From positions 2,914,001-2,978,000 of the forward strand of contig NZ_JAGKQQ010000001.1 of NCBI RefSeq assembly GCF_017939745.1: a stretch of DNA of 64,000 bases. Direction: 5' to 3'. A program made the position numbers and the translations under genes. This DNA comes from Gemmata palustris. GTDB taxonomy: Bacteria; Planctomycetota; Planctomycetia; Gemmatales; Gemmataceae. The notes beneath the pieces were generated by a model. The model did not search any database. It was not told where the DNA came from and saw nothing but the letters and a program-made list of their open reading frames with translations. This document shows positions 3,106 through 48,018 of the stretch, piece after piece (within the stretch, counting starts at the first letter, position 1; each line of letters begins with the position of its first letter).

Positions 3106-6100
3106 CGGCGTTGGTATCCTCGTGCGCTGGAGTTTGACGGACCGGGAGCGTGACCACGAACGTGGCCCCGTCCCCTTCCCGGCTGTGGGCCGTGATCGTC
3201 CCGCCGTGCCGTTCGGCGATCTTACGACAAATAGCGAGTCCGACCCCGGTCCCCTCGTACTCGTCCCGCCCGTGGAGCCGCTGGAACACTTCAAAAATCC
3301 GGTCCCGGTACTTCTCATCGAACCCGATCCCGTTGTCCCGCACGGACAACCGGTGCGCCGGCCCGCCCGCCCCCGGATCACCCGGGGGCGGGGTAACGAG
3401 TTCTCCCGCGATCTCCACGACGGGCGGTACGCCCGGTCGCTGAAATTTTACCGCGTTGGCGATGAGGTTCTGAAACAACTGCCGCATCTGCGTCGGGTCG
3501 GCACGGACCTCGGGCAGCGCCCCGATTACGACCCGCCCGTTCGCTTGCCCGATCCGAACGTCCAAATCCGACACGACCTCCCGGACCAGTTTACCCAAAT
3601 CGAGCGGCTTGAACGGGCGCTGTTGCGTGGTGACGCGCGAGAACGAGAGCAGGTCGTCGATGAGCCGGCGCATCCGGCCCGCGGCGACCAGCATCCGGTC
3701 CACGTACTCTTTTCCCTTGTCGGGCAGCGCGTCGCGACACTTGGTGACGAGCCGGTCGCCGAACGCCTGAATCTTCCGGAGCGGCTCCTGGAGGTCGTGC
3801 GAGGCGATGTACGCGAACTTCTCCAGTTCGCCGTTACTGCGCTCCAGCTCGACCGCGACCGCCCGGACTTTGGCCTCGGTCCCCTTTCGGACCTCGATCT
3901 CGCCGGTCAGGGCCGCGTTCGCCTGCTCCAGTGCGGCCGTCCGCTCGCGCACCACCTGTTCCAGGAAGTCCCGCTGGCGCTTTTGATCGTCGATATCGGT
4001 GAGTGTTCCCACCCACTCGCCGACCGCGCCCGTCGGGTCGCGCAGCGAAATCGCCGCGGAGAGGAACCAGCGGTACTCGCCGTCCGCCGCGCGCCGCAGC
4101 CGGAACTCCTGCGAGAACCCGTCGGCCCGGTTCGCGACCGCGAGTTGCCACCCGGCGCGGAGCCGGTCCGCGTCGTCGGGGTGGAGTAAATCGCCCCCCC
4201 AACCCGACTCCCGCCCGGATTCGAGTTCCGCCCCGGTGTACTCGGCCCAGCGGCGGTTGAAGAACGTCACCGTACCGCGCGGGTCGGCCGTCCAGACGAT
4301 TTGCGGAACGGTTTCGGTGAGCGTGCGGAACCGCAACTCGCTGGCCCGCATGTGCTCCTCGGCCCGGCGCTGCTCGGTCACGTCGCGCGAGACGCCGAGT
4401 AACCGGAACGGGCGCCCGTCCGCCCCGGGCAGCGGCGCGACCGACACGTCCCAGTACCTCGGGGTGCCCTTCGCGGTCGGGCAGAACCCCTGGAACCGCC
4501 CGACGGCGCCGGCGCGCGCGTCCGCGACCGCTTCCCGAATCGTCTCGCGGTTCGCGACCGGCCACTGTTCGGCCCACGCGCCGCCCCGGATCGCTTCAAA
4601 GTCGTCCACCTCCATCAGCCGGCACCCGGCCTGGTTCATTTCCAGCACGCGCCCGTCGAGGTCGAACACCTTCAGGCAGTCGGGGCTGTTCTCGAACACG
4701 CTCCGGCGAAACGCCTCGCTCTCGCCGATCAGTTCCACCGCGGTCTTCTGGTCGTGAATATCGGCCATCGACCCGATCCACTGGTCCACGCGCCCGTCGG
4801 CGTGCCGCAACGGGACCGCGACGCTCTGGAACCAGCGGTAGGTGCCGGTCCCGGTGTGCATCAGGCGGAACTCTTCGGAGAACCGGTCCGCTCCGCCGGA
4901 GGTGGCGTGATTCACGGTGCGCTGCCACGCCCCGTAAACACGGTCCCGGTCGTCCGGGTGAACCGCACGCATCCACCCGCCCCCGCGGGCTTCCTCCACT
5001 TGTAGTGCGGTCTGTTCGAGCCAGCGCCGGTTGAAGTACGTGATCTCGCCGTCCGCGCCCGCGTTCCACACGATGTGCGGGACCGCTTCGGTGAGCGTCC
5101 GGTACCGCTCTTCGTTGAGGCGCACCGCGATTTCGGCGGCGCGCTGATCGGTGACGTCCAGGCACAGGCCCGCGAACCCCACGAACGTGCCCCCGGACGT
5201 GTGCCGCGGCGTCCCTCGGGCCAGCACCCACCGGTACTCGCCGTCGTGCCGGCGCAGGCGGTACTCCAGCCCGAACGGCTCGCGCCGGTCGGCGGCGGCG
5301 TTGTAGATGTCCAGGTACCGGGCGCGGTCCTCGGGGTGGATGTCGTCGGCCCACCCGAAGCCGGCCAACTGGTCCGGTGTCCGCCCCGTGAACGCCAACC
5401 ACGTCTTGTTGAAGTACGTGCGCCGCCGGTCCGGTTCCGAGAGCCAGATGAGGGCCGGGGAACTGTCGGCCATCGTTCGGAACCGCTCCTCGCTCTCGTG
5501 CAGCGCGCCACCGGTCCGGCGCCGATCGATGTACTGTGCGACGCTCGCCGCGACCGGCCCGAGATCGGCCACCAGCGCTTCGGACAACTTGGCGCGGGAG
5601 AACAGGGCCAAAACCCCGAGGACGCGGCCCTCCACGACGAGCGGGTAGCCGACGAACGACCGCATCCCCTCACGGGCCGCCCACGCCGGGTCACTCACGT
5701 TCGGGTCGTTCAGGACATCGTTCGTCAAGTGCGACGCGCCCGTCTGGGCGATTCGGCCGATCTTAAAATCGCCGACCCGGACCCGGCTGTGGGCTCCGTC
5801 CAGGTGCGTGTACAGACCGGCGCTCGCCCTCAGTTCGAGCCACTCGCCCGTTGCGTCCGTGAGCCAAATGCGCGCAAGCGCCGCGTCGAGAGAGCGGACC
5901 AGGGTTTCCACACAAGTTTGAAGGGCCGCGTTCGTTTCGCGGACCGTGGCGAGGGCCGATGACACGTCCGCCCGGAGCGCGGTCGCGCGGGCGCGCTCGG
6001 CCAGTTCGTCCGCCGTGCGCCTCTGCTCCGTAATGTCGTGGAGCACGACGCCCGCGCCCAACGTGTACCCGTCCGCCCGGCGCACCGGGAACGCGGTCAC

Positions 6101-7273
6101 GTGCCACACCAGTGCCCCCCCGGTCGCGAGATTGGGGCGCTGGACGGTACCCGAGTACGCCCCGGACGCGCCGGTCGCGATCCGGCGGTACGTCTCCGCC
6201 AACTCGCGCGGGAAGTCGGGCAGCACGTCCGTGAGTTTGCGCCCCAAGTGCTCGCTCACCGGTTTGCCGTTCGCCGCGGCGAGGAACGTGTTGACCTTCT
6301 CGTACCGCAAGTCGTGGTCGAAAAAAACGATGCCCACCGGGGCGTTGTCGAGAAAGGCGTCCAGCCGGGCGAGCGCTTCGGCGGCCTGGTTCCGGGCCGT
6401 CATTAATTCCCCCTCGCGCTGCCGGAGGGCCGCCTCCACCACCCGGCGCCGGACGACCTCGGATTCCAGTTCTTCCTGCCGGGCCAGTGCGGAGGTGAGT
6501 GCGGCGCGCGCGCGCCGCTGGGCCACCCGCTGCGATTCCCCCAGGGCCGCACACGCGACCCCGCAAAAAAAGAACAGCGCGCTCGCCAACTGGTTCCCGA
6601 GCCCGGTAATGAAGAGCGTCCCGCGCGGCGGCAAGAAAAAATACATGTACCCGACCACGGTAATAATCAGGGTCACCAGTGCGGGCCGGAACCCGTGCTG
6701 CCAGCTCACGTACACGACCCCGAGGAGCGCGACGACGAAGATTTGGTCGTCGCGCAGGAGCGTGTCCACGACCCCGCGCACGAGTAGTGCGAGGACGCCG
6801 ACCAGAACGGCGATGATGTAGGCGCGCCAGGGCACCCCGCGCCCGGCACCGGAGAGCGGGCGGTGGTGCTTGGTTCCCGTATCGGTTGCCGTCACCGCCC
6901 CGGTTACGGTGGGCACGACGCGCGGGATCACTTGAATCAGTGCAACGACCGCCGTCCACGACAGGACCGCGGTGACGGCCTTCATCACCCCCTCGAACCG
7001 GTACACCGGGTACTCGAAGAGCAGCGCGTCGATCAGGTGCGTGGTGCCGCACGCGAGGAGGAACAGCGCGAAGAGGACGAAGAGGCGCGGGAACGGCAGG
7101 TCGCGGCGCCGCGTAAAATAGAACAACATTAATGGAATCGAAACGTAGGCCAACCAGATCAAAAAGTCGCTGGTGGCGTGCAGCCAGATGAGGGCGGGGG
7201 TCCAACCGGTTCCGCCCTCCCCGCGCCGGGCGAATCCCGCGGGATCGAATAGACCGGTTAGTACCTCGAGCAT
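3062..7273 (-). CDS. Membrane sensor histidine kinase with ethylene-receptor-like N-terminus, GAF and multiple PAS domains
   Basis: A 1403-residue sensor kinase. The first 125 residues hold three membrane helices closely matching the ethylene-binding domain of plant ETR1: SDFLIWLAYVSIP and CGTTHLID align with the ETR1 segments that carry Asp25, Tyr32, Ile35, Pro36 and the copper ligands Cys65/His69 (here D36, Y43, I46, P47, C75, H79). A DUF4118-like four-helix segment follows (about 150-250), then a PAS domain, a GAF domain (about 410-570), several PAS/PAC units, a HisKA domain with the H in IASHDLQEPLRKI and a HATPase_c domain (NLIANAVKFQ, DNGIGFDEKYRDRIFEVF). ATG 7273 was chosen because AGGGA lies about 7 nt upstream; the preceding in-frame 17 codons look non-coding. 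It shares a 222-bp divergent promoter region with the NtrC-type gene. Confidence 0.9.
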   Translation of the reverse strand: MLEVLTGLFDPAGFARRGEGGTGWTPALIWLHATSDFLIWLAYVSIPLMLFYFTRRRDLPFPRLFVLFALFLLACGTTHLIDALLFEYPVYRFEGVMKAVTAVLSWTAVVALIQVIPRVVPTVTGAVTATDTGTKHHRPLSGAGRGVPWRAYIIAVLVGVLALLVRGVVDTLLRDDQIFVVALLGVVYVSWQHGFRPALVTLIITVVGYMYFFLPPRGTLFITGLGNQLASALFFFCGVACAALGESQRVAQRRARAALTSALARQEELESEVVRRRVVEAALRQREGELMTARNQAAEALARLDAFLDNAPVGIVFFDHDLRYEKVNTFLAAANGKPVSEHLGRKLTDVLPDFPRELAETYRRIATGASGAYSGTVQRPNLATGGALVWHVTAFPVRRADGYTLGAGVVLHDITEQRRTADELAERARATALRADVSSALATVRETNAALQTCVETLVRSLDAALARIWLTDATGEWLELRASAGLYTHLDGAHSRVRVGDFKIGRIAQTGASHLTNDVLNDPNVSDPAWAAREGMRSFVGYPLVVEGRVLGVLALFSRAKLSEALVADLGPVAASVAQYIDRRRTGGALHESEERFRTMADSSPALIWLSEPDRRRTYFNKTWLAFTGRTPDQLAGFGWADDIHPEDRARYLDIYNAAADRREPFGLEYRLRRHDGEYRWVLARGTPRHTSGGTFVGFAGLCLDVTDQRAAEIAVRLNEERYRTLTEAVPHIVWNAGADGEITYFNRRWLEQTALQVEEARGGGWMRAVHPDDRDRVYGAWQRTVNHATSGGADRFSEEFRLMHTGTGTYRWFQSVAVPLRHADGRVDQWIGSMADIHDQKTAVELIGESEAFRRSVFENSPDCLKVFDLDGRVLEMNQAGCRLMEVDDFEAIRGGAWAEQWPVANRETIREAVADARAGAVGRFQGFCPTAKGTPRYWDVSVAPLPGADGRPFRLLGVSRDVTEQRRAEEHMRASELRFRTLTETVPQIVWTADPRGTVTFFNRRWAEYTGAELESGRESGWGGDLLHPDDADRLRAGWQLAVANRADGFSQEFRLRRAADGEYRWFLSAAISLRDPTGAVGEWVGTLTDIDDQKRQRDFLEQVVRERTAALEQANAALTGEIEVRKGTEAKVRAVAVELERSNGELEKFAYIASHDLQEPLRKIQAFGDRLVTKCRDALPDKGKEYVDRMLVAAGRMRRLIDDLLSFSRVTTQQRPFKPLDLGKLVREVVSDLDVRIGQANGRVVIGALPEVRADPTQMRQLFQNLIANAVKFQRPGVPPVVEIAGELVTPPPGDPGAGGPAHRLSVRDNGIGFDEKYRDRIFEVFQRLHGRDEYEGTGVGLAICRKIAERHGGTITAHSREGDGATFVVTLPVRQTPAHEDTNADAPQEQANHDPDGR

Positions 7274-7495
7274 GGCTTCCCTGAGATGGGCGAAGGGCCG
7301 AACGGGTCGGGGCGCCCGGCACACTCCGTGTACCGCGGCTCCGAACGGTGAGGGCGCTGGGTCGTTCTCGTCGCGTCGTGCCAGTATTCGGAGCTTGGCC
7401 GCCCCGAAAACGTCCGGGGCAAAGCGCGGGTGTGTTCCACGGAACCGGTTCGGGCTGTAGAATACAGGTTCGGGTAATCAACGTAGGAACAGCGC

Positions 7496-8944
7496 ATGGT
7501 TAATGACACGACTCCTGCACCTTCCGTGCCAGCCCCCTCACCGGCGCAACGGGTACTGGTCGTCGAGGACCTGGAAGACACCCGCGCTTCGCTCCAGGAA
7601 CTGCTCCAGATGAGCCTCGGGCTGGAGGTCGATACCGCCGAGGACGGCGCCGCGGGTTTGGCGCTGCTCCGCACGAAGCCGTACAGCCTGGTCATCACCG
7701 ACCTGCGGATGCCGAAGGTCGGCGGGATGAAGCTGATCGAGGCGATCCAGGGCGAGAAGATCCCCGTCACCATCATCGTTACCACCGGTCACGGGAACGT
7801 AAAAGACGCCGTCGAAGCGATGCGGATGGGCGTTTACGACTTCATGACCAAGCCGCCGGACCCGCAGCACCTCCAGCTCATCGTCCAACGGGCGCTGCGC
7901 GAGCGCACGCTCCGGGACGAGGTCGCCGCCCTGCGGCGCGAGCTCGGCGACCGCCACGCCTTCCAGAACGTGCTGAGCCGCAGCCCGAAGATGTACGACA
8001 TGTTCGAGCTGATCGGCAACATCGCCGAGACCAGTTCGACGGTGCTGATCCGCGGCGAAACCGGGAGCGGGAAGGAGCAGGTCGCGCGCGCGATCCACCA
8101 GGCGTCCACCGCGATCCGGCCCGGCGAGTTCGTCGCGGTCAACTGCGGCGCGCTCAACGAGAACCTGCTGGAGAGCGAACTGTTCGGCCACGAGAAGGGG
8201 TCGTACACCGGGGCCGACCGCAAGCGCATCGGGCGGTTCGAGCTGGCCCACAAGGGGACGCTGTTCCTCGACGAGATCGGCGACGTGCCGATGTCGATGC
8301 AGATCAAACTGCTCCGCGTGCTCCAGGAGCGCCGGTTCGAGCGCGTGGGCGGGACGGAGCCGATCGAGGTGGACGTGCGCGTGGTCGCCGCGACCCACCA
8401 GGACATGGAAAAGCTGGTGAAGGACGGGAAGTTCCGGGAAGACCTCTATTACCGGCTGAACGTGGTGCGGATCGACCTGCCGCCGCTGCGCGAGCGCGTC
8501 GAGGACATCCCCGTGCTCGTGTCGCACTTCTGCGAGAAGTTCGCGCGCATCAACCAGAAGGCGCCCACCGTCAGCCCGGAAGCGATGGCCATGCTGACGA
8601 AGTGCGCGTGGCCCGGGAACGTGCGCCAGCTCGAAAACGCCATCGAGCGCGCTTGCGTGACCGCGCGCGACGGCGTCATCCGCACGAAAGACTTACCCCC
8701 GGAAGTGGGGCGCAAAGCCGAGGGCGGCAAGAACCCGTTCCAGGTGGACCTGACCCGCAAGCTACCGGACCAATTGGCCGAACTGGTCGCGGCGTTCGAG
8801 GAGCGGTACATCCGTCGCGCTCTCAAGCGCTCGCGGGGGCACGTGGGCAAGTGTGCGAAGATTACGGGGCTCTCGCGCCGCAGCATCACGGACAAGATTG
8901 CGCAGTACAAGATCGACAAAGCGCAGTTCAAGGGCGGCGAGTGA
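7496..8944 (+). CDS. NtrC-family sigma-54-dependent response regulator
   Basis: A 482-residue activator with a receiver domain (phospho-acceptor D69 in LVITDLRMPK), an AAA+ sigma-54 activation domain (Walker A GETGSGKE at 187-194, Walker B FLDEIGD at 257-263, an arginine-rich REDLYYRLNV segment) and a C-terminal Fis-type helix-turn-helix (GLSRRSITDKIAQYKI). The family remodels sigma-54 RNA polymerase through the loop GAFTGA; here positions 235-240 read GSYTGA, so two loop residues differ. An AGGA box lies about 8 nt before the ATG. It is divergent from the ethylene-receptor-like kinase gene, which makes that kinase a plausible, unproven partner. A long hairpin follows the stop. Confidence 0.92.
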   Translation: MVNDTTPAPSVPAPSPAQRVLVVEDLEDTRASLQELLQMSLGLEVDTAEDGAAGLALLRTKPYSLVITDLRMPKVGGMKLIEAIQGEKIPVTIIVTTGHGNVKDAVEAMRMGVYDFMTKPPDPQHLQLIVQRALRERTLRDEVAALRRELGDRHAFQNVLSRSPKMYDMFELIGNIAETSSTVLIRGETGSGKEQVARAIHQASTAIRPGEFVAVNCGALNENLLESELFGHEKGSYTGADRKRIGRFELAHKGTLFLDEIGDVPMSMQIKLLRVLQERRFERVGGTEPIEVDVRVVAATHQDMEKLVKDGKFREDLYYRLNVVRIDLPPLRERVEDIPVLVSHFCEKFARINQKAPTVSPEAMAMLTKCAWPGNVRQLENAIERACVTARDGVIRTKDLPPEVGRKAEGGKNPFQVDLTRKLPDQLAELVAAFEERYIRRALKRSRGHVGKCAKITGLSRRSITDKIAQYKIDKAQFKGGE

Positions 8945-8988
8945 GCGGCGAAGTGCGCAACACCCGGCACCGCTCCCGCTAGTGCTGA

Positions 8989-9056
8989 TCCCGGGACCGC
9001 AGACGTCCCGCCTGCTCTTCGGAAGAGGAGCGGGCGGAACGTCCGTGGTCCCGGGA
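8989..9056. terminator. Long bidirectional terminator-like hairpin
   Basis: Arms 8989-9020 and 9025-9056 (32 nt each) are complementary except for six positions, most of them compatible with G-U pairing, and enclose a GGAA tetraloop. The ends TCCCGGGACC / GGTCCCGGGA are perfect. It lies in the 119-bp gap between two convergent genes (7496-8944 and 9064-10959), so it can end transcription from both sides. There is no strong T-run. Confidence 0.75.
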
Positions 9057-9063
9057 AAAGAGA

Positions 9064-10959
9064 TCACTTCGGCGCCTCTTTCACGGCCGGCGGAGGAACC
9101 GGGCGCGTCCCGAGCGGCGGGCGATTGGAGCCCGCTGCGTCCTCGGGATCGACGGTCACTTCGCCGCCGTCGATCGTGACATACGGCCAGAACACTTCCG
9201 GTTTGAGATTGGTCGGGAACATGCTCACGCTGCCGTCGAAGCGCAGCGCGGGAGTTCGGTCCCAGCCCTTGTCGCCGAGCGGAGGAACCGCCCCGCCAAA
9301 CGGCAGGTCGCCGGGCTTCGACCAGATGACGCCCTCCCCGGCCTCGATCACCGCGAGCGTGTTCGAGGTGCCGTCGTGGATCGACGTGATCGCAAGACCG
9401 GTCTTTTCCCCCTGCCGCAGCCACGGGCGCCCGAAGATCCCCTTCGGTTGGGGCTTTTGCAGATCGGAGCCGACGAAGCCCTGATAGAACGTCTTGCCCT
9501 TCGTGTGGTCGCGGTCGGGCGCCAGGTATACCTTCGGCATCTTCTCGATGAGCGCCTTGTTGTTCGGCCCGTCCCACGCCTCGTCCATCTTGAACTGCTT
9601 GTAGAGATTGTCTTCTTCGAGATACGGTAACAGGTGAACGCGCCAACTGAGGAGCACTTCCCCGTTCGGCCCGTAGACGTTCGTGGGGAACTTACCGTTC
9701 GCGTCGTGATAAGCGTGAAGTGCGAGGCCGATCTGCTTCAAGTTGTTCATCCGCTGCTCGGCCTTCTTGCGGCTTTGAACGGCCTGGAGCAGTTCGCCGA
9801 ACGCCTTCGACGCGGCGGGGCCGGCATCGACCTCCGCACTCGCGAGCACTGCCGTGCCCTCGGTCTTCACGGTGGCCTTCTTCAAGCTCGCGGCAAACGC
9901 GGTCACGATCGGCGCCGCGGACTTCTCGAACGGTCGGCGGCTCTCCTTCATCTCCGCGGCCCACTCGTTCAGCTTCTCGGCGACCGTCCCGATGCCCTCT
10001 TCGAGCACTGGAGCGGCCCGCTTTGCGGCGGTCGCGTCATCAAAGGTGAGCGCCAGCGTCAACTTCGCGGACTCGTTGAGATCGCCCGCGAGGACCGCGG
10101 TGCGCGACGCGAGCAGCGCGGTGTACGGCACCAGTTCGCGCGGCACGTGCCGGTCGAACTCGCGGAACACGGGCGGCAGGTGAATACCGGCCGCGAGCGT
10201 GTGGGTGCTTGCGGCCGCGAGCGCGTCGGCGAGCGGACCCGTCGCGTTCTTTTTCAGAGTCGCGCCGAGGAGCGCCATGCGCGCGCGTTCGCCGCTCGTC
10301 CCCCCGGGGAGAAACACGAGCGTGCGCTCATCGATCAGGAACAGCACGGAGAACGGGTTGCGTTCGAGCGCGTAGCACAGAGGTTCCGCGTCCCCGCCGT
10401 CCGCAGTTGCTGAGCACGAATCCGCGTCCTTCGGGTCGGGGGCCACCTCGATCGGGCGAGGGGCCGGGGACTTCACCTCTACTCTCGGCGGCGAACCACC
10501 GAAGCCGCCGCGTGGACCGCGCCCGGCATCGCCCTCGAACACGGGTTCGGCCTTCAGGCTCTTCAGCACGCGGACTTCGTTGAATGGCTCGCGCGTGGTC
10601 ACGACCAGGATCGGCTCCGCCCCGCCGCGCGGGTCGAGGCGCGGCCAGAACAGCGTCACGCGATCGATCTCCGTCGGCGCCACGCCGATCACTTCGGTGA
10701 GCCCCGCGAGCGCGTCCGGCTGCTTCGCGAGTTGCGCGAGTACCGTCTTCAGGTCCGGGTTCCGTGCGAGATCGGAAACTTTGAGCGTGATGAACGCGCC
10801 GGCCGATTTCGGCACGACCGGCAGCGCGGAAGCCGCTGGTGGCGCCTCACCGGGGGCACCCGGTTGAGGCAGTTGTTGTGCGGTGGAGGGCGCATACAAG
10901 GACAGCCCGGCCATCAGTGCCAGCGCGGGCAACAGTCGTGGCTGGATCACGGTGAACAC
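9064..10959 (-). CDS. Secreted DUF1559-domain protein, non-prepilin type
   Basis: A 631-residue protein with an N-terminal hydrophobic signal (LLPALALMAGLSLYAPSTAQ), a central alpha/beta region of about 350 residues without a recognised family, and a C-terminal DUF1559 (SBP_bac_10) region: NNLKQIGLALHAYHDANG, the SWRVHLLPYLE block, the DGTSNTLAVIEAG block and a final FDGSVSMF in place of the usual ADGSVRF. The prepilin leader found on most DUF1559 proteins is absent. It starts at a GTG; 10959 is given, but GTG 10950 has the better spaced GAGG box. It is a paralogue of the next gene on the same strand, 60 bp upstream. Function is unknown; secretion is inferred from the leader. Confidence 0.82.
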   Translation of the reverse strand: MFTVIQPRLLPALALMAGLSLYAPSTAQQLPQPGAPGEAPPAASALPVVPKSAGAFITLKVSDLARNPDLKTVLAQLAKQPDALAGLTEVIGVAPTEIDRVTLFWPRLDPRGGAEPILVVTTREPFNEVRVLKSLKAEPVFEGDAGRGPRGGFGGSPPRVEVKSPAPRPIEVAPDPKDADSCSATADGGDAEPLCYALERNPFSVLFLIDERTLVFLPGGTSGERARMALLGATLKKNATGPLADALAAASTHTLAAGIHLPPVFREFDRHVPRELVPYTALLASRTAVLAGDLNESAKLTLALTFDDATAAKRAAPVLEEGIGTVAEKLNEWAAEMKESRRPFEKSAAPIVTAFAASLKKATVKTEGTAVLASAEVDAGPAASKAFGELLQAVQSRKKAEQRMNNLKQIGLALHAYHDANGKFPTNVYGPNGEVLLSWRVHLLPYLEEDNLYKQFKMDEAWDGPNNKALIEKMPKVYLAPDRDHTKGKTFYQGFVGSDLQKPQPKGIFGRPWLRQGEKTGLAITSIHDGTSNTLAVIEAGEGVIWSKPGDLPFGGAVPPLGDKGWDRTPALRFDGSVSMFPTNLKPEVFWPYVTIDGGEVTVDPEDAAGSNRPPLGTRPVPPPAVKEAPK

Positions 10960-44570: not shown

Positions 44571-44644
44571 TACATTGTAGTTCAGCACAACACGCGCGCA
44601 AACCCGGTCCTACACCCCGGACGCGCTCCGTTCCGCTACCGACG

Positions 44645-44673
44645 TTGACACTTCGCGAGCCGTCGGCCACTAT
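44645..44673 (+). promoter_or_regulatory. Predicted promoter of the retron
   Basis: A perfect -35 TTGACA (44645-44650), a 17-bp spacer and a weak -10 CACTAT (44668-44673). Transcription would start near 44680, exactly where the first arm of the retron RNA begins. The match of start point and RNA border is what makes the prediction credible. Confidence 0.55.
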
Positions 44674-44680
44674 CCCTCCA

Positions 44681-44850
44681 CCGCGAGCGGGCCGAGCACG
44701 ATGGCAACATGGTTCGCGAGAACCGTGTCCGCCATCGCTCCGGGGTTACCCCGGAGACCTTTTATCACTTGGGACTGCAGGCGCGCGACAGCCCGGGCGC
44801 TTCCACGCCCCCGATGTCGCGCGGGACGGGACTCGTCGACCCGCTCGCGG
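44681..44850 (+). ncRNA. Predicted retron msr-msd RNA
   Basis: The 170-nt region is closed by perfectly complementary arms CCGCGAGCGGG (44681-44691) and CCCGCTCGCGG (44840-44850), the a1/a2 arrangement of retrons. AGC follows the first arm (44695-44697), so G44696 is the candidate branching guanosine. Next come two msr-type hairpins: 44700-44736 (GATGGC/GCCATC closing a GGTTC-GCGA-GAACC stem) and 44738-44756 (CTCCGGGG-TTA-CCCCGGAG). A third, GC-rich hairpin at 44782-44823 (CGCGCGACA / TGTCGCGCG plus an inner 5-bp stem) is the likely msd core. The RT gene begins 20 nt after the second arm. Structure was found by eye, no covariation was tested. Confidence 0.72.
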
Positions 44851-44870
44851 CTCTCACGTTCACGGACGAA

Positions 44871-46238
44871 ATGAGCACCCAGCAACGATTCGTGCGAAAC
44901 CTCGCGGCCGGGATGCTCGCGGGCGAATGGACCGCTGCCGGACTGCGCGAGTCCGCCTATCGTGCAACCGGCCACACCTTCGCGTGGGCACCGGCACTCG
45001 CGAAGCGCGTCCTCGAAACACATTCAACCGCGCCCCCCTTCCCCACACTCCTCGCGGTTCTCACGGCCGATGCCGGATTTCAGCGGGCATTCGCTGCGCT
45101 CGCGTCCGACCGAAACGCGGACGATCGCTTCCCCGTGTGGCACCTCTTTCCGGTTCCCACACCTCCCCCATTGCCGCGCCCAGAATGGGCAAAGGAGCTC
45201 CCCGATCTCCCGAACGAACCCGCGCTCGCGGAGTGGCTCGGCGTGCCGCTCGAGCGCCTGCTGTGGCTCGCGGACCCGAAGGGCCGCAATACGGGACACC
45301 GCCCCGGTTCCGTGCGCACGTACCGGGCGCGATGGGTGCCCAAAACTCACAGCCGGGCACGGTTGCTGGAGGTTCCAATACCTGCGCTCATGCGAGCACA
45401 GCGGAAGGTACTCGTCGGCTTGCTGAATTCCGTACCATCACACCCGGCCGTACACGGGTTCCGGGTTGGTCGATCCGCAATCACGAACGCAGCCCCACAT
45501 TGTGGGCGAGCAGTGGTGATCCGCTTCGACCTCGCGGATTTCTTCCCCTCGATCCCGGCCGGGCGCGTGTTCCGAATGTTCCTCACGCTGGGCTACCCCG
45601 AAACAGTCGCACGGCTCCTCGGGAGTCTGTGTACCACGCGCCTCCCGACCAAAGATTGGAACGCGCGCCCCAACCCGCGTACCGATAGCGCGGAATACCA
45701 AACGCGAATTCGGCTCGCAACCCGCCACCTACCACAAGGCGCGCCGACCTCGCCCGCACTCGCGAACTTGGCGGCCCACCGACTCGATCGCCGACTCGCG
45801 GGCCTCGCGTCCGCGTGCGGAGCCACTTATTCGCGATACGCGGACGATCTGACGTTCTCCGGTGGTGAAGACGTGAGGCGCTCCGCGTCGCGGCTCGCGC
45901 GCCGAGTGGCACTGATCGCGGCAGAAGAAGGCTTCACATTGAATCGCGGAAAAACGCGCATGCAAGGCCGCAGCGAACGGCAAACCGTGACCGGCGCGGT
46001 CGTGAACGTGCGGCCGAACATCCCGCGTGCGGACTTCGATCTGTTGAAAGCGATTCTCACGAACTGCGTGCGCCACGGACCCGCGACCCAAAACCGCGCG
46101 AGCCACCCCGACTTTCGTGCGCATCTGGCGGGACGAATCGCGCACCTCGCGTCAGTGAACCCGGTTCGCGGGCGAAAGCTGTGGGCTACCTTCGACCGCA
46201 TCGCGTGGGACGCTGATTCCACCCAGTCGGGCCAATAG
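44871..46238 (+). CDS. Retron-type reverse transcriptase
   Basis: A 455-residue RT from ATG 44871 (MSTQQRFVRNLAAG). About 120 residues precede the RT domain. Then come LAEWLGVPLERLLWLAD, the finger region RWVPKTHSRARLLEVP, HPAVHGFRVGRSAITNAAPH with the retron NAxxH motif (206-210), catalytic Asp in IRFDLADFFPSI (D220), HLPQGAPTSPALANL, the active-site YADD (323-326) in YSRYADDLTFSG, and VTGAVVN with the retron VTG motif (373-375). The long N-terminal extension and VHGFRVGRS block recall myxobacterial retron RTs (Mx162 group; from memory). An in-frame start at 44709 would read through the retron RNA and was rejected. It would synthesise msDNA primed from the 2'-OH of the branching G. Confidence 0.93.
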   Translation: MSTQQRFVRNLAAGMLAGEWTAAGLRESAYRATGHTFAWAPALAKRVLETHSTAPPFPTLLAVLTADAGFQRAFAALASDRNADDRFPVWHLFPVPTPPPLPRPEWAKELPDLPNEPALAEWLGVPLERLLWLADPKGRNTGHRPGSVRTYRARWVPKTHSRARLLEVPIPALMRAQRKVLVGLLNSVPSHPAVHGFRVGRSAITNAAPHCGRAVVIRFDLADFFPSIPAGRVFRMFLTLGYPETVARLLGSLCTTRLPTKDWNARPNPRTDSAEYQTRIRLATRHLPQGAPTSPALANLAAHRLDRRLAGLASACGATYSRYADDLTFSGGEDVRRSASRLARRVALIAAEEGFTLNRGKTRMQGRSERQTVTGAVVNVRPNIPRADFDLLKAILTNCVRHGPATQNRASHPDFRAHLAGRIAHLASVNPVRGRKLWATFDRIAWDADSTQSGQ

Positions 46239-46239
46239 G

Positions 46240-48018
46240 ATGGTTAAAAAAATCAGATCGTTCGCCAGGAACCGCCCAATGGCACGCAAACGCGCCGGGA
46301 AGAATGAGCGCACTCAACAGACCGGTCCCGAAATGACCGCTGAAGAGCGAGCGGAACTTGACGCTCGGCTCGCACACATGCTCCACGCACCACTCAAGAG
46401 CGATCTCGGCAACGGGCGATTCTTCTTGCTGTGGGCAGCGCGCGACGAGAACAACAGTGTTCGCACACGTATTTGGAACCCGGAGACGGAACAGGAATTA
46501 CGAGAGGCCAATTTCTTCTACGACGCGGCCCACGGTCTTGGGGCGTTCACCAAGCGGGTCGCACGGGGCCAGACGGTGCGCCGAAGTGCTACCGAAACGG
46601 CGCTCATCAACGCGATCCTCCGGAGCCGCGACGACGAAAACGGCTACCTAGTGTACGCGGACTACCTAACCGAGAACGGCGATACTCAGGGCGACTTCAT
46701 CCGTTTGTGTACCGAAATGCAGCGACTGAAGCCTGATGCCCCGGCGCACGAAGCGAAGAATGAACGAATTGCCGAATTGGTCGACGCACACGCCGAAGAG
46801 TGGTTCGACCCCCTCGAGGTGCTCGGCCTGCGGCCGCAATTGGTCGGCAAATTCGCGCCGTGGTTGTGGCTGTCCGACAAGTACGGCGTTATTGATGCGG
46901 TGGCAGTCGACCGACCGGGGCTGTTGCCGGGCAACGCGAATCGGCTCTTCGCCGCGGCGCCGTTTCTGCGAAAACTGACGTTCGAGAAGGGGCACGTCGC
47001 TCCGGATCTCGGGAAAGTCAAGCAACTGACACAGATCGAGGAACTGAACTTCACTCACGCGGACCTGACAGCAGAAGCCCTTGAGAAGATTGTTCGCTCG
47101 AAACACCTCACCGGTCTGAAGGCCCTGCACCTCTACGGTAATGAAATTGGTCACGCGGGTGTTCACGCACTCACCGAATGGCCGGGGCTGGGGCGCCTCG
47201 AAACACTCGATCTTACCAGATGCGACACCGGCCCCGAAGCCGTCGTGGAACTCGCGCGGTGCGAAAACACGTCACACATCACGCGCCTCCGACTCGGTCA
47301 CAATTCGATCGACGGCGACGCGGTTCGCGCGGTCCTCGGTTCCCCCCACCTCGGCCGCCTCATCGAACTCGACTTGGCGGGAGCGGACTTCGACCACGTT
47401 GCCGCGTTTCATTTCCACACGTCCGCTTCCTCCAAAACGCTGCAACAAATCGATCTGGACTCAGCAACGTTCACGGCACTCGCGTTCGGGCACTTTACGC
47501 GGTGCCACCTTCCCGCGCTCGAATTTCTCAAGTTGAATAACGTCCGACTCCGCGCGCAGGAGGCCGCGTACCTCTCAAGTGCGGCATTCGCCGGTACGCT
47601 TACGGCTCTCTTTTTCGATAACTGCGGATTGGGCGCAGCAGGTGCCCAAGCTCTCCTTGAAAGCACGTTCCCGACGCTCGCAACCCTCGACCTGTCGCGC
47701 AACCGACTTACGAACCGTGGCGGCCTTGCACTGGCGCACGCGGCACTAAGCCTCCCCGCACTCACCTCGCTGAAACTTTGGGACAACAAACTGGGTCCGT
47801 CCGCGATCACCGCCCTCGCCGAGAGCCCGCTCCTGGCGAACCTGACGGAGCTCGATATCAACGACAACAAAATCGGCCCCGCCGGTGCAACGGCGCTCGC
47901 AAAATCACAGTACCTGAAGCACCTCAAAACGCTCACCGTGGACGAAAAGACGGTGGGCATGAAGGGGAAATGGGCGCTCCTTGACCGATTCGGCGAGAGC
48001 GTAATCGGTTGGAGGTAG
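46240..48018 (+). CDS. TIGR02996 leucine-rich-repeat protein, candidate retron effector
   Basis: A 592-residue soluble protein whose ATG lies one nucleotide after the RT stop (TAGGATG), so it is in the same transcript. Order: basic start, a 60-residue region GRFFLLWAARDENNSVRTRI of unknown fold, a TIGR02996 segment (ETALINAILRSRDDENGYLV, YADYLTENGDTQGDFIRLC) and about a dozen ribonuclease-inhibitor-type LRRs (LTGLKALHLYGNEIGHAG, ATLDLSRNRLTNRGGLAL, LTELDINDNKIGPAGATAL). No nuclease, TM or ATPase motif is visible. TIGR02996 proteins are numerous in Gemmata, so the pairing could be accidental, but the spacing argues for a functional unit. ATG 46279 (MARKRAGKNERT) is an alternative start. Confidence 0.88.
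   Translation: MVKKIRSFARNRPMARKRAGKNERTQQTGPEMTAEERAELDARLAHMLHAPLKSDLGNGRFFLLWAARDENNSVRTRIWNPETEQELREANFFYDAAHGLGAFTKRVARGQTVRRSATETALINAILRSRDDENGYLVYADYLTENGDTQGDFIRLCTEMQRLKPDAPAHEAKNERIAELVDAHAEEWFDPLEVLGLRPQLVGKFAPWLWLSDKYGVIDAVAVDRPGLLPGNANRLFAAAPFLRKLTFEKGHVAPDLGKVKQLTQIEELNFTHADLTAEALEKIVRSKHLTGLKALHLYGNEIGHAGVHALTEWPGLGRLETLDLTRCDTGPEAVVELARCENTSHITRLRLGHNSIDGDAVRAVLGSPHLGRLIELDLAGADFDHVAAFHFHTSASSKTLQQIDLDSATFTALAFGHFTRCHLPALEFLKLNNVRLRAQEAAYLSSAAFAGTLTALFFDNCGLGAAGAQALLESTFPTLATLDLSRNRLTNRGGLALAHAALSLPALTSLKLWDNKLGPSAITALAESPLLANLTELDINDNKIGPAGATALAKSQYLKHLKTLTVDEKTVGMKGKWALLDRFGESVIGWR

Follow-up and report, generated by a model that had tools for sequence, protein, structure and literature searches.

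A very probable retron with a covarying msr-msd RNA in Gemmata palustris

Closest described systems

Passages of PMC6868368 describe the plan of a retron as an RNA with complementary ends that abut a priming G, one to three msr hairpins and a single msd hairpin. For the myxobacterial retron Mx65, they give GAGC as the priming context, and for Mx162 they report vertical inheritance. The locus that is analyzed here lies in a 64,000-nucleotide stretch of the Gemmata palustris genome (hereafter, the window; contig NZ_JAGKQQ010000001.1, positions 2,914,001 to 2,978,000 of the forward strand). Mx65 and Mx162 (Retron-Mxa2 and Retron-Mxa1, respectively) resemble it in an RT with an N-terminal extension and in a GAGC/CAGC priming context but differ in host phylum, and they are likened here by their published description (PMC6868368). 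Retron Ec86 (Eco1) offers the nearest solved structure to the window RT by both sequence and fold. Nonetheless, its RT chain counts about 320 residues compared to 455 here, and Ec86 works with an effector (title of PDB entry 7v9x). Two PADLOC models, RT_other (PDLC02949) and RT_outgroup (PDLC03740), match the window RT over nearly its full length (494 and 463 bits, respectively), and the same two are the best models for the four homologues that were scanned (L002, L004, L029 and L033). RT_outgroup is labelled ‘retron’ in PADLOC; the models provide a name only.

PADLOC already includes this RT clade, and retrons in general are known elements; the window locus would add another one. In the literature on retrons and msDNA in Gemmata, planctomycetes and Burkholderia, no description of the RNA was found, and an earlier prediction of it is possible. 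The clade is listed in PADLOC under model names, and for it the present analysis supplies a covariation-supported msr-msd with a promoter and a predicted priming site, and it extends a directly testable retron to Planctomycetota. We hold it very probable, judging from sequence, that the locus is a retron that combines a promoter with a structured msr-msd RNA (about 170 nt in length) and a cognate RT. This reading is based on covariation, the matches of a covariance model (R1), a stem located at the AG motif, the RT motifs, the PADLOC models and the folds of retron RTs. By analogy with known retrons, the RT would bind the msr, prime on the 2'-OH of G44696 and copy the msd from about position 44835 back to between about 44757 and 44780. 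The resulting RT-DNA would measure about 55–80 nt, and the branched RNA-DNA hybrid would stay bound by the RT. The ribonucleoprotein would most likely act alone or with a partner encoded elsewhere.

Structure and conservation of the RNA

The elements of the locus follow each other on the + strand (window positions 44645–46238) in the order promoter, a1 arm, G44696, hairpins 1 and 2, a mostly unpaired stretch, msd hairpin, a2 arm and RT (Table 1). The initial annotation had read a full retron RNA plan in this region, with a TTGACA promoter placed to start transcription at the first arm. The plan is supported by the covariation, the stem flush with AG, the retron-like RT and the co-occurrence of RNA and RT. 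The promoter is present as well, and its predicted start lies at about 44680, some 7 nt past CACTAT and one base 5' of the a1 arm. A -35 element with at least five of the six letters occurs in 15 out of 16 Gemmataceae loci, of which 14 are convincing. L056 has no such element, the match in L070 is unconvincing and the -10 element of L069 is shifted by one. TTGACA is present in all 27 Burkholderiaceae loci examined, 27–28 nt 5' of the RNA stretch as cut there. The RT begins 20 nt past the second arm, as had been proposed, with an in-frame ATG at 44871 and the a2 arm ending at 44850. The RT frame extends upstream without a stop into the msr-msd (44709–44870), so that an automatic gene caller could place the RT start within the RNA and thereby mask the latter.

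Table 1. Features of the retron locus in the window (positions counted from the first letter of the window)
Feature	Start	End	Strand	Description
Promoter	44645	44673	+	-35 TTGACA (44645–44650), 17-nt spacer, -10-like CACTAT (44668–44673)
a1 arm	44681	44695	+	5' side of the long stem, made of 11 pairs, a mismatch and 3 further pairs
Putative priming (branching) G	44696	44696	+	GAGC context; stem ends directly before; branch inferred
msr hairpin 1	44699	44737	+	Sequence variable; minimum-energy fold only, absent from the RNAalifold consensus
msr hairpin 2	44738	44756	+	CTCCGGGG-TTA-CCCCGGAG; most conserved element
msd hairpin	44782	44823	+	Outer CGCGCGACA / TGTCGCGCG, inner GGGCG / CGCCC; minimum-energy fold and consensus
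a2 arm	44836	44850	+	3' strand of the long stem; pairs with a1
RT gene	44871	46238	+	Retron-type, 455 aa; N-terminal helical extension; YADD / NAAPH / VTG motifs

Two arms of 11 nt had been described as exactly complementary, and CCGCGAGCGGG (44681–44691) is indeed the exact reverse complement of CCCGCTCGCGG (44840–44850). Beyond this 11-mer, a mismatch (C44692/A44839) is followed by the pairs C44693-G44838, G44694-C44837 and A44695-T44836, which corrects the 11-nt arm to a stem of 14 pairs over 15 positions. The AGC that was said to follow the first arm lies three bases past the 11-mer (44695–44697) and sits right at the true end of the stem. Complementary ends within the range of about 8–30 bases abut a conserved putative priming G in GAGC, and branching is predicted at G44696 by analogy. 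Among 43 homologues scored (16 Gemmataceae and 27 Burkholderiaceae), the stem, of 11–20 pairs, ends directly at the A of the AG motif in 38. Of the remaining five, three (L055, L005 and L006) were assigned a downstream AG by the script, even though their duplex as printed continues through the usual position; the stem of L064 and L065 stops 2 nt sooner. Arm ends were set by hand, as an automatic long-duplex search over-extended the duplexes. L020 (pattern not found), L026 (contig end), L034, L029, L031, L039, the Acidovorax loci and L046 fall outside this scoring. Perfect 11-bp arms with loops of 100–200 nt occur 12 times in the window, or nine times once copies shifted by one base are merged, while 20 dinucleotide shuffles contain 5.65 on average (range 1–10). 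The chance of such arms within 300 bp 5' of the RT is 0.0046 (5000 shuffles). As stand-alone proof the arms were rejected, their number being near chance for this window; it is because the feature is conserved across homologues that we consider it more than chance.

The minimum-energy fold of the RNA reaches -101.9 kcal/mol (z = -6.11; none of 200 dinucleotide shuffles is as low). It contains the two short hairpins and the longer one in the proposed order msr, msr, msd, which corresponds to the one to three msr hairpins and one msd hairpin 5' of the RT in the retron plan. The msd hairpin is compact and has a strong stem, and would be useful for DNA production in cells. In the RNA of L060 (G091:C1141:3796-3937), arms and msr hairpins are intact but most of the msd hairpin is absent, either because it was truly deleted or because the assembly failed at so strong a hairpin.

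The initial annotation had named a lack of covariation in homologues as the outcome that would speak against the structure, and the opposite was clearly found. Sixteen Gemmataceae RNAs were aligned without structure (alignment A1; mean column identity of 64%), with the duplicate records L001/L057, L002/L059, L003/L063 and L014/L067 entered once. The consensus comprises 28 pairs, 16 of which show two-sided compensatory change. Of its 431 cells, 97.0% are paired, compared to 86.8% with shuffled partners (0 out of 500 as high). In a control with slid partners, 39.0–50.9% of the cells are paired, a comparison that favors the consensus as it was derived from the same 16 sequences. Helix 3, corresponding to msr hairpin 2, has 100% of its cells paired and two-sided change in five of eight pairs. 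For helices 4 and 5 of the msd hairpin, 98.3% and 95.0% of the cells are paired, with two-sided change in six of 12 pairs.

Covariance model R1 was built from A1, hence from Gemmataceae only, and tested on 45 other loci out of L001–L083; its E-values are rough. The RNA was retrieved 5' of the RT and on the same strand (E ≤ 0.001) in all 13 Burkholderiaceae loci given (L004–L009, L012, L017, L019, L023, L030, L032 and L034), and likewise in Roseateles (L039). Half of the ten Acidovorax loci reach E ≤ 0.01, and the other five have matches at about the corresponding place with E-values of 0.016–0.87. No R1 match was obtained in Tropicimonas (L029) and only a partial one in Thermohalobaculum (L031; E = 0.061); by eye, the layout of both loci is similar. 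None of the 16 RT-paralogue loci (L050–L053, L072–L083) reaches E ≤ 0.01. Of 95 Gemmataceae genomes searched with R1, 21 contain the RNA; strict filters left a single copy per genome, and a second copy is present in G008 (in L068). All 18 Gemmataceae genomes that were assigned an RT of this clade (matches with E ≤ 4.5e-90; next match 6.9e-69) carry the RNA; 16 of these genomes supplied the training set of R1, G006 and G008 being the two that did not. A search of 392 genomes of the phylum yielded eight RNAs besides that of the window's own genome, and a related RT is found in each of these eight planctomycete loci (partial in L143, at the locus end). Neither the window nor any of ten related loci contains an Rfam family at gathering score. 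The only matches of a permissive search of 44600–44900 were to Moco-II (15.7 bits) and Bcj11 (13.8 bits); neither is a retron family, both scores fall far short of gathering, and we take them as chance matches.

Inheritance and gene neighborhood

In the window and in G010, a glmM-like gene (TIGR03990) is found 3' of the RT and is separated from it by an LRR gene or what is left of one; it is directly beside the RT in G011, G014, G022, G051, G054, G088, G090, G091 and G008. The two genes are thus neighbors in 11 genomes, out of 21 that carry the RNA and 68 in which the glmM-like gene was found. They lie on different contigs in G006, G016, G042, G044, G063, G089 and G092. As for the other genomes, an RT remnant is 1.2 Mb away from the glmM-like gene in G026, no RT is present in G093 and the glmM-like gene was not found in G041. 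The identities of RT and glmM-like protein in adjacent pairs run roughly parallel (83/93% for G010, 70/84% for G011, 61/78% for G014, 57/76% for G090, 57/77% for G091, 50/70% for G051 and 45/71% for G054), and less so in G088 (51/77%) and G008 (58/69%). The adjacency in 11 of 21 genomes suggests inheritance that was mostly vertical, with repeated decay.

Decay is visible in four genomes, three of which carry the RNA without an intact RT. In G022 (L119, G022:C2) the RT is spread over three frames, which could be a sequence error; in G026 (L124, G026:C1) the RT is reduced to a remnant of 36 residues; and in G093 (L120, G093:C80) the RNA is present with no RT in 15 kb. A different arrangement is seen in G006 (L118, G006:C17), where the RNA (6946–7120, + strand) and the RT (8001–9347, - strand) are separated by about 0.9 kb that includes a PIN-domain gene (7439–7903; weak Pfam match). 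The 3' part of this RNA seems repeated near 7950, as if by an inversion or a second insertion. Regarding a mobile origin, viral contigs contained no relative (single-sequence query, with low sensitivity). In the PLSDB plasmid collection 163 records match, none over more than 80% of the query, and the first three are Burkholderia replicons of 0.88–1.26 Mb.

In a midpoint-rooted tree of the RTs, 13 Gemmataceae rows are grouped (support 90/88) with G006 outside, and further groups consist of Burkholderiaceae (100/99), two Alphaproteobacteria (100/98) and a second planctomycete family (100/98). G014, a member of the genus that the window comes from, is placed together with two genomes of genus g37 (G089 and G092), and G090 and G091 lie elsewhere in the tree. 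The identities and the tree agree with inheritance that was mostly vertical, accompanied by losses and perhaps by some transfer.

No effector was recognised adjoining the window RT. Twenty Gemmataceae regions share no ORF family (at least 90 aa) common to more than four of them, besides the RT, the glmM-like gene and antisense shadows. In B. pyrrocinia, the annotated neighbors are metabolic, transport, cell-wall or regulatory genes, along with one hypothetical protein. In Burkholderia, a gene with a PFIN domain (plasmid fertility inhibition factor, PF22162; 61.7 bits with Pfam) is located directly upstream in 13 of 27 loci, on the same strand and ending 230–310 bases before the equivalent of the RT start. 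In L007, for instance, it spans 3832–4446 and ends 24 bases before the retron promoter. PFIN fragments occur in two further Burkholderia loci (L016 and L041), and L026 has no upstream sequence. The PFIN search gave no match in the window, the Gemmataceae regions L105–L124 or the planctomycete loci L137–L144. It is possible that the PFIN gene serves as an accessory or effector, and does so solely in the Burkholderia members.

Copies that sit next to a housekeeping gene and show no recognisable effector offer an opportunity to ask what a retron does in the absence of such a partner. One possible answer is that Planctomycetota and relatives in Burkholderiales harbor effector-less, mostly vertically inherited chromosomal retrons, anchored in Gemmataceae beside the glmM-like gene, whose msDNA would have a host function of its own, regulatory or in genome maintenance rather than in abortive-infection defence. 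We regard this answer as doubtful, since its standing is lowered by the PFIN gene in about half of the Burkholderia loci and by an RT tree that departs from genus labels.

A tripartite retron would have its effector in the LRR/TIGR02996 gene at 46240–48018, which is encoded on the same strand with a single base separating its ATG from the RT stop codon. LRR-like matches are also located 3' of the RT in G010, 5' of the RNA in G016 and adjoining the RT remnant in G026. However, the match in G010, the nearest relative, is shortened and split over two frames, and it is the glmM-like gene that lies directly 3' of the RT in G011, G014, G022, G051, G054, G088, G090 and G091. Moreover, the own genome contains 66 TIGR02996 matches, and the lists of neighbor families at the Burkholderia loci show no LRR family. 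We consider it unlikely that the LRR gene is an effector and give little credence to the tripartite arrangement.

The reverse transcriptase

Within Pfam, RVT_1 is the only family found in the window RT, and every NCBIfam retron model stays below its cut-off (the best at 167 bits versus 600). The protein combines YADD with the retron motifs NAxxH (region X, NAAPH here) and VTG (region Y) as defined in passages of PMC6868368. The N of NAxxH and the VT of VTG are replaced in the Burkholderiaceae homologues, and the same source describes the N as replaced in Mx65 too. The AlphaFold model (mean pLDDT of 83.9) places the N-terminal helices within residues 3–79, and in a fold search the 18 best PDB chains are retron RTs, with Ec86 first (E = 7.5e-18). 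Compared with the closest homologue (L055; 450 codons), dN is 0.10 and dS is 0.79, so the RT is under purifying selection. The clade to which the window RT belongs comprises retron RTs with an N-terminal extension from Planctomycetota and Burkholderiales.

These features also weigh on what else the RNA could be. As it is strongly structured and sits in the 5' leader of the RT gene, ending 20 nt before the ATG, it could act as a cis-regulatory leader (an attenuator or a ribosome-access switch) that is never reverse transcribed. Yet a leader needs neither a stem flush with AG(C), nor the order msr-msr-msd, nor RT motifs X and Y, all of which a retron does need, and we deem a leader very improbable. 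A defence RT of the DRT/UG type, using the ncRNA through another priming mode, would agree with matches of the RT core to Drt2 and Drt3a, but these are weak (29.9 and 25.5 bits) and far below the cut-offs. Against it stand the PADLOC retron models at 463–494 bits, the presence of NAxxH and VTG, and the nearest folds being retron RTs with DRT2 only at rank 23, which leaves such a system extremely improbable. That the region instead codes for the N-terminus of a 509-aa RT starting at ATG 44709 accords with a frame that is open upstream beyond this codon, but this was rejected as scarcely credible given single-base gaps between the window and L055 at A1 columns 39 and 90 that break the frame, a PADLOC RT_outgroup profile starting at residue 57 of 509, just past ATG 44871, and base changes that track the RNA pairs.

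Retron type XIII was considered for the window RT and rejected, as it scores 311 bits with RT_XIII versus 494 with RT_other and the tree splits its clade from the RT_XIII-scoring paralogues with 100/99 support. We take RT_XIII to be the myxobacterial type. Three RT paralogues in the own genome show the opposite pattern, scoring higher with RT_XIII than with RT_other when these two models were searched. In total, up to four more retron-like RT loci are present in this genome, namely L050/L126 (G000:C1:4600640), L052/L125 (G000:C1:1124149), L051/L127 (G000:C1:660576) and L053 (G000:C1:7231808), three of which score 358–528 bits with PADLOC RT_XIII. Conserved blocks occur upstream in the L050 family, with inverted repeats in L050 itself, and this upstream region may hold an RNA of its own.
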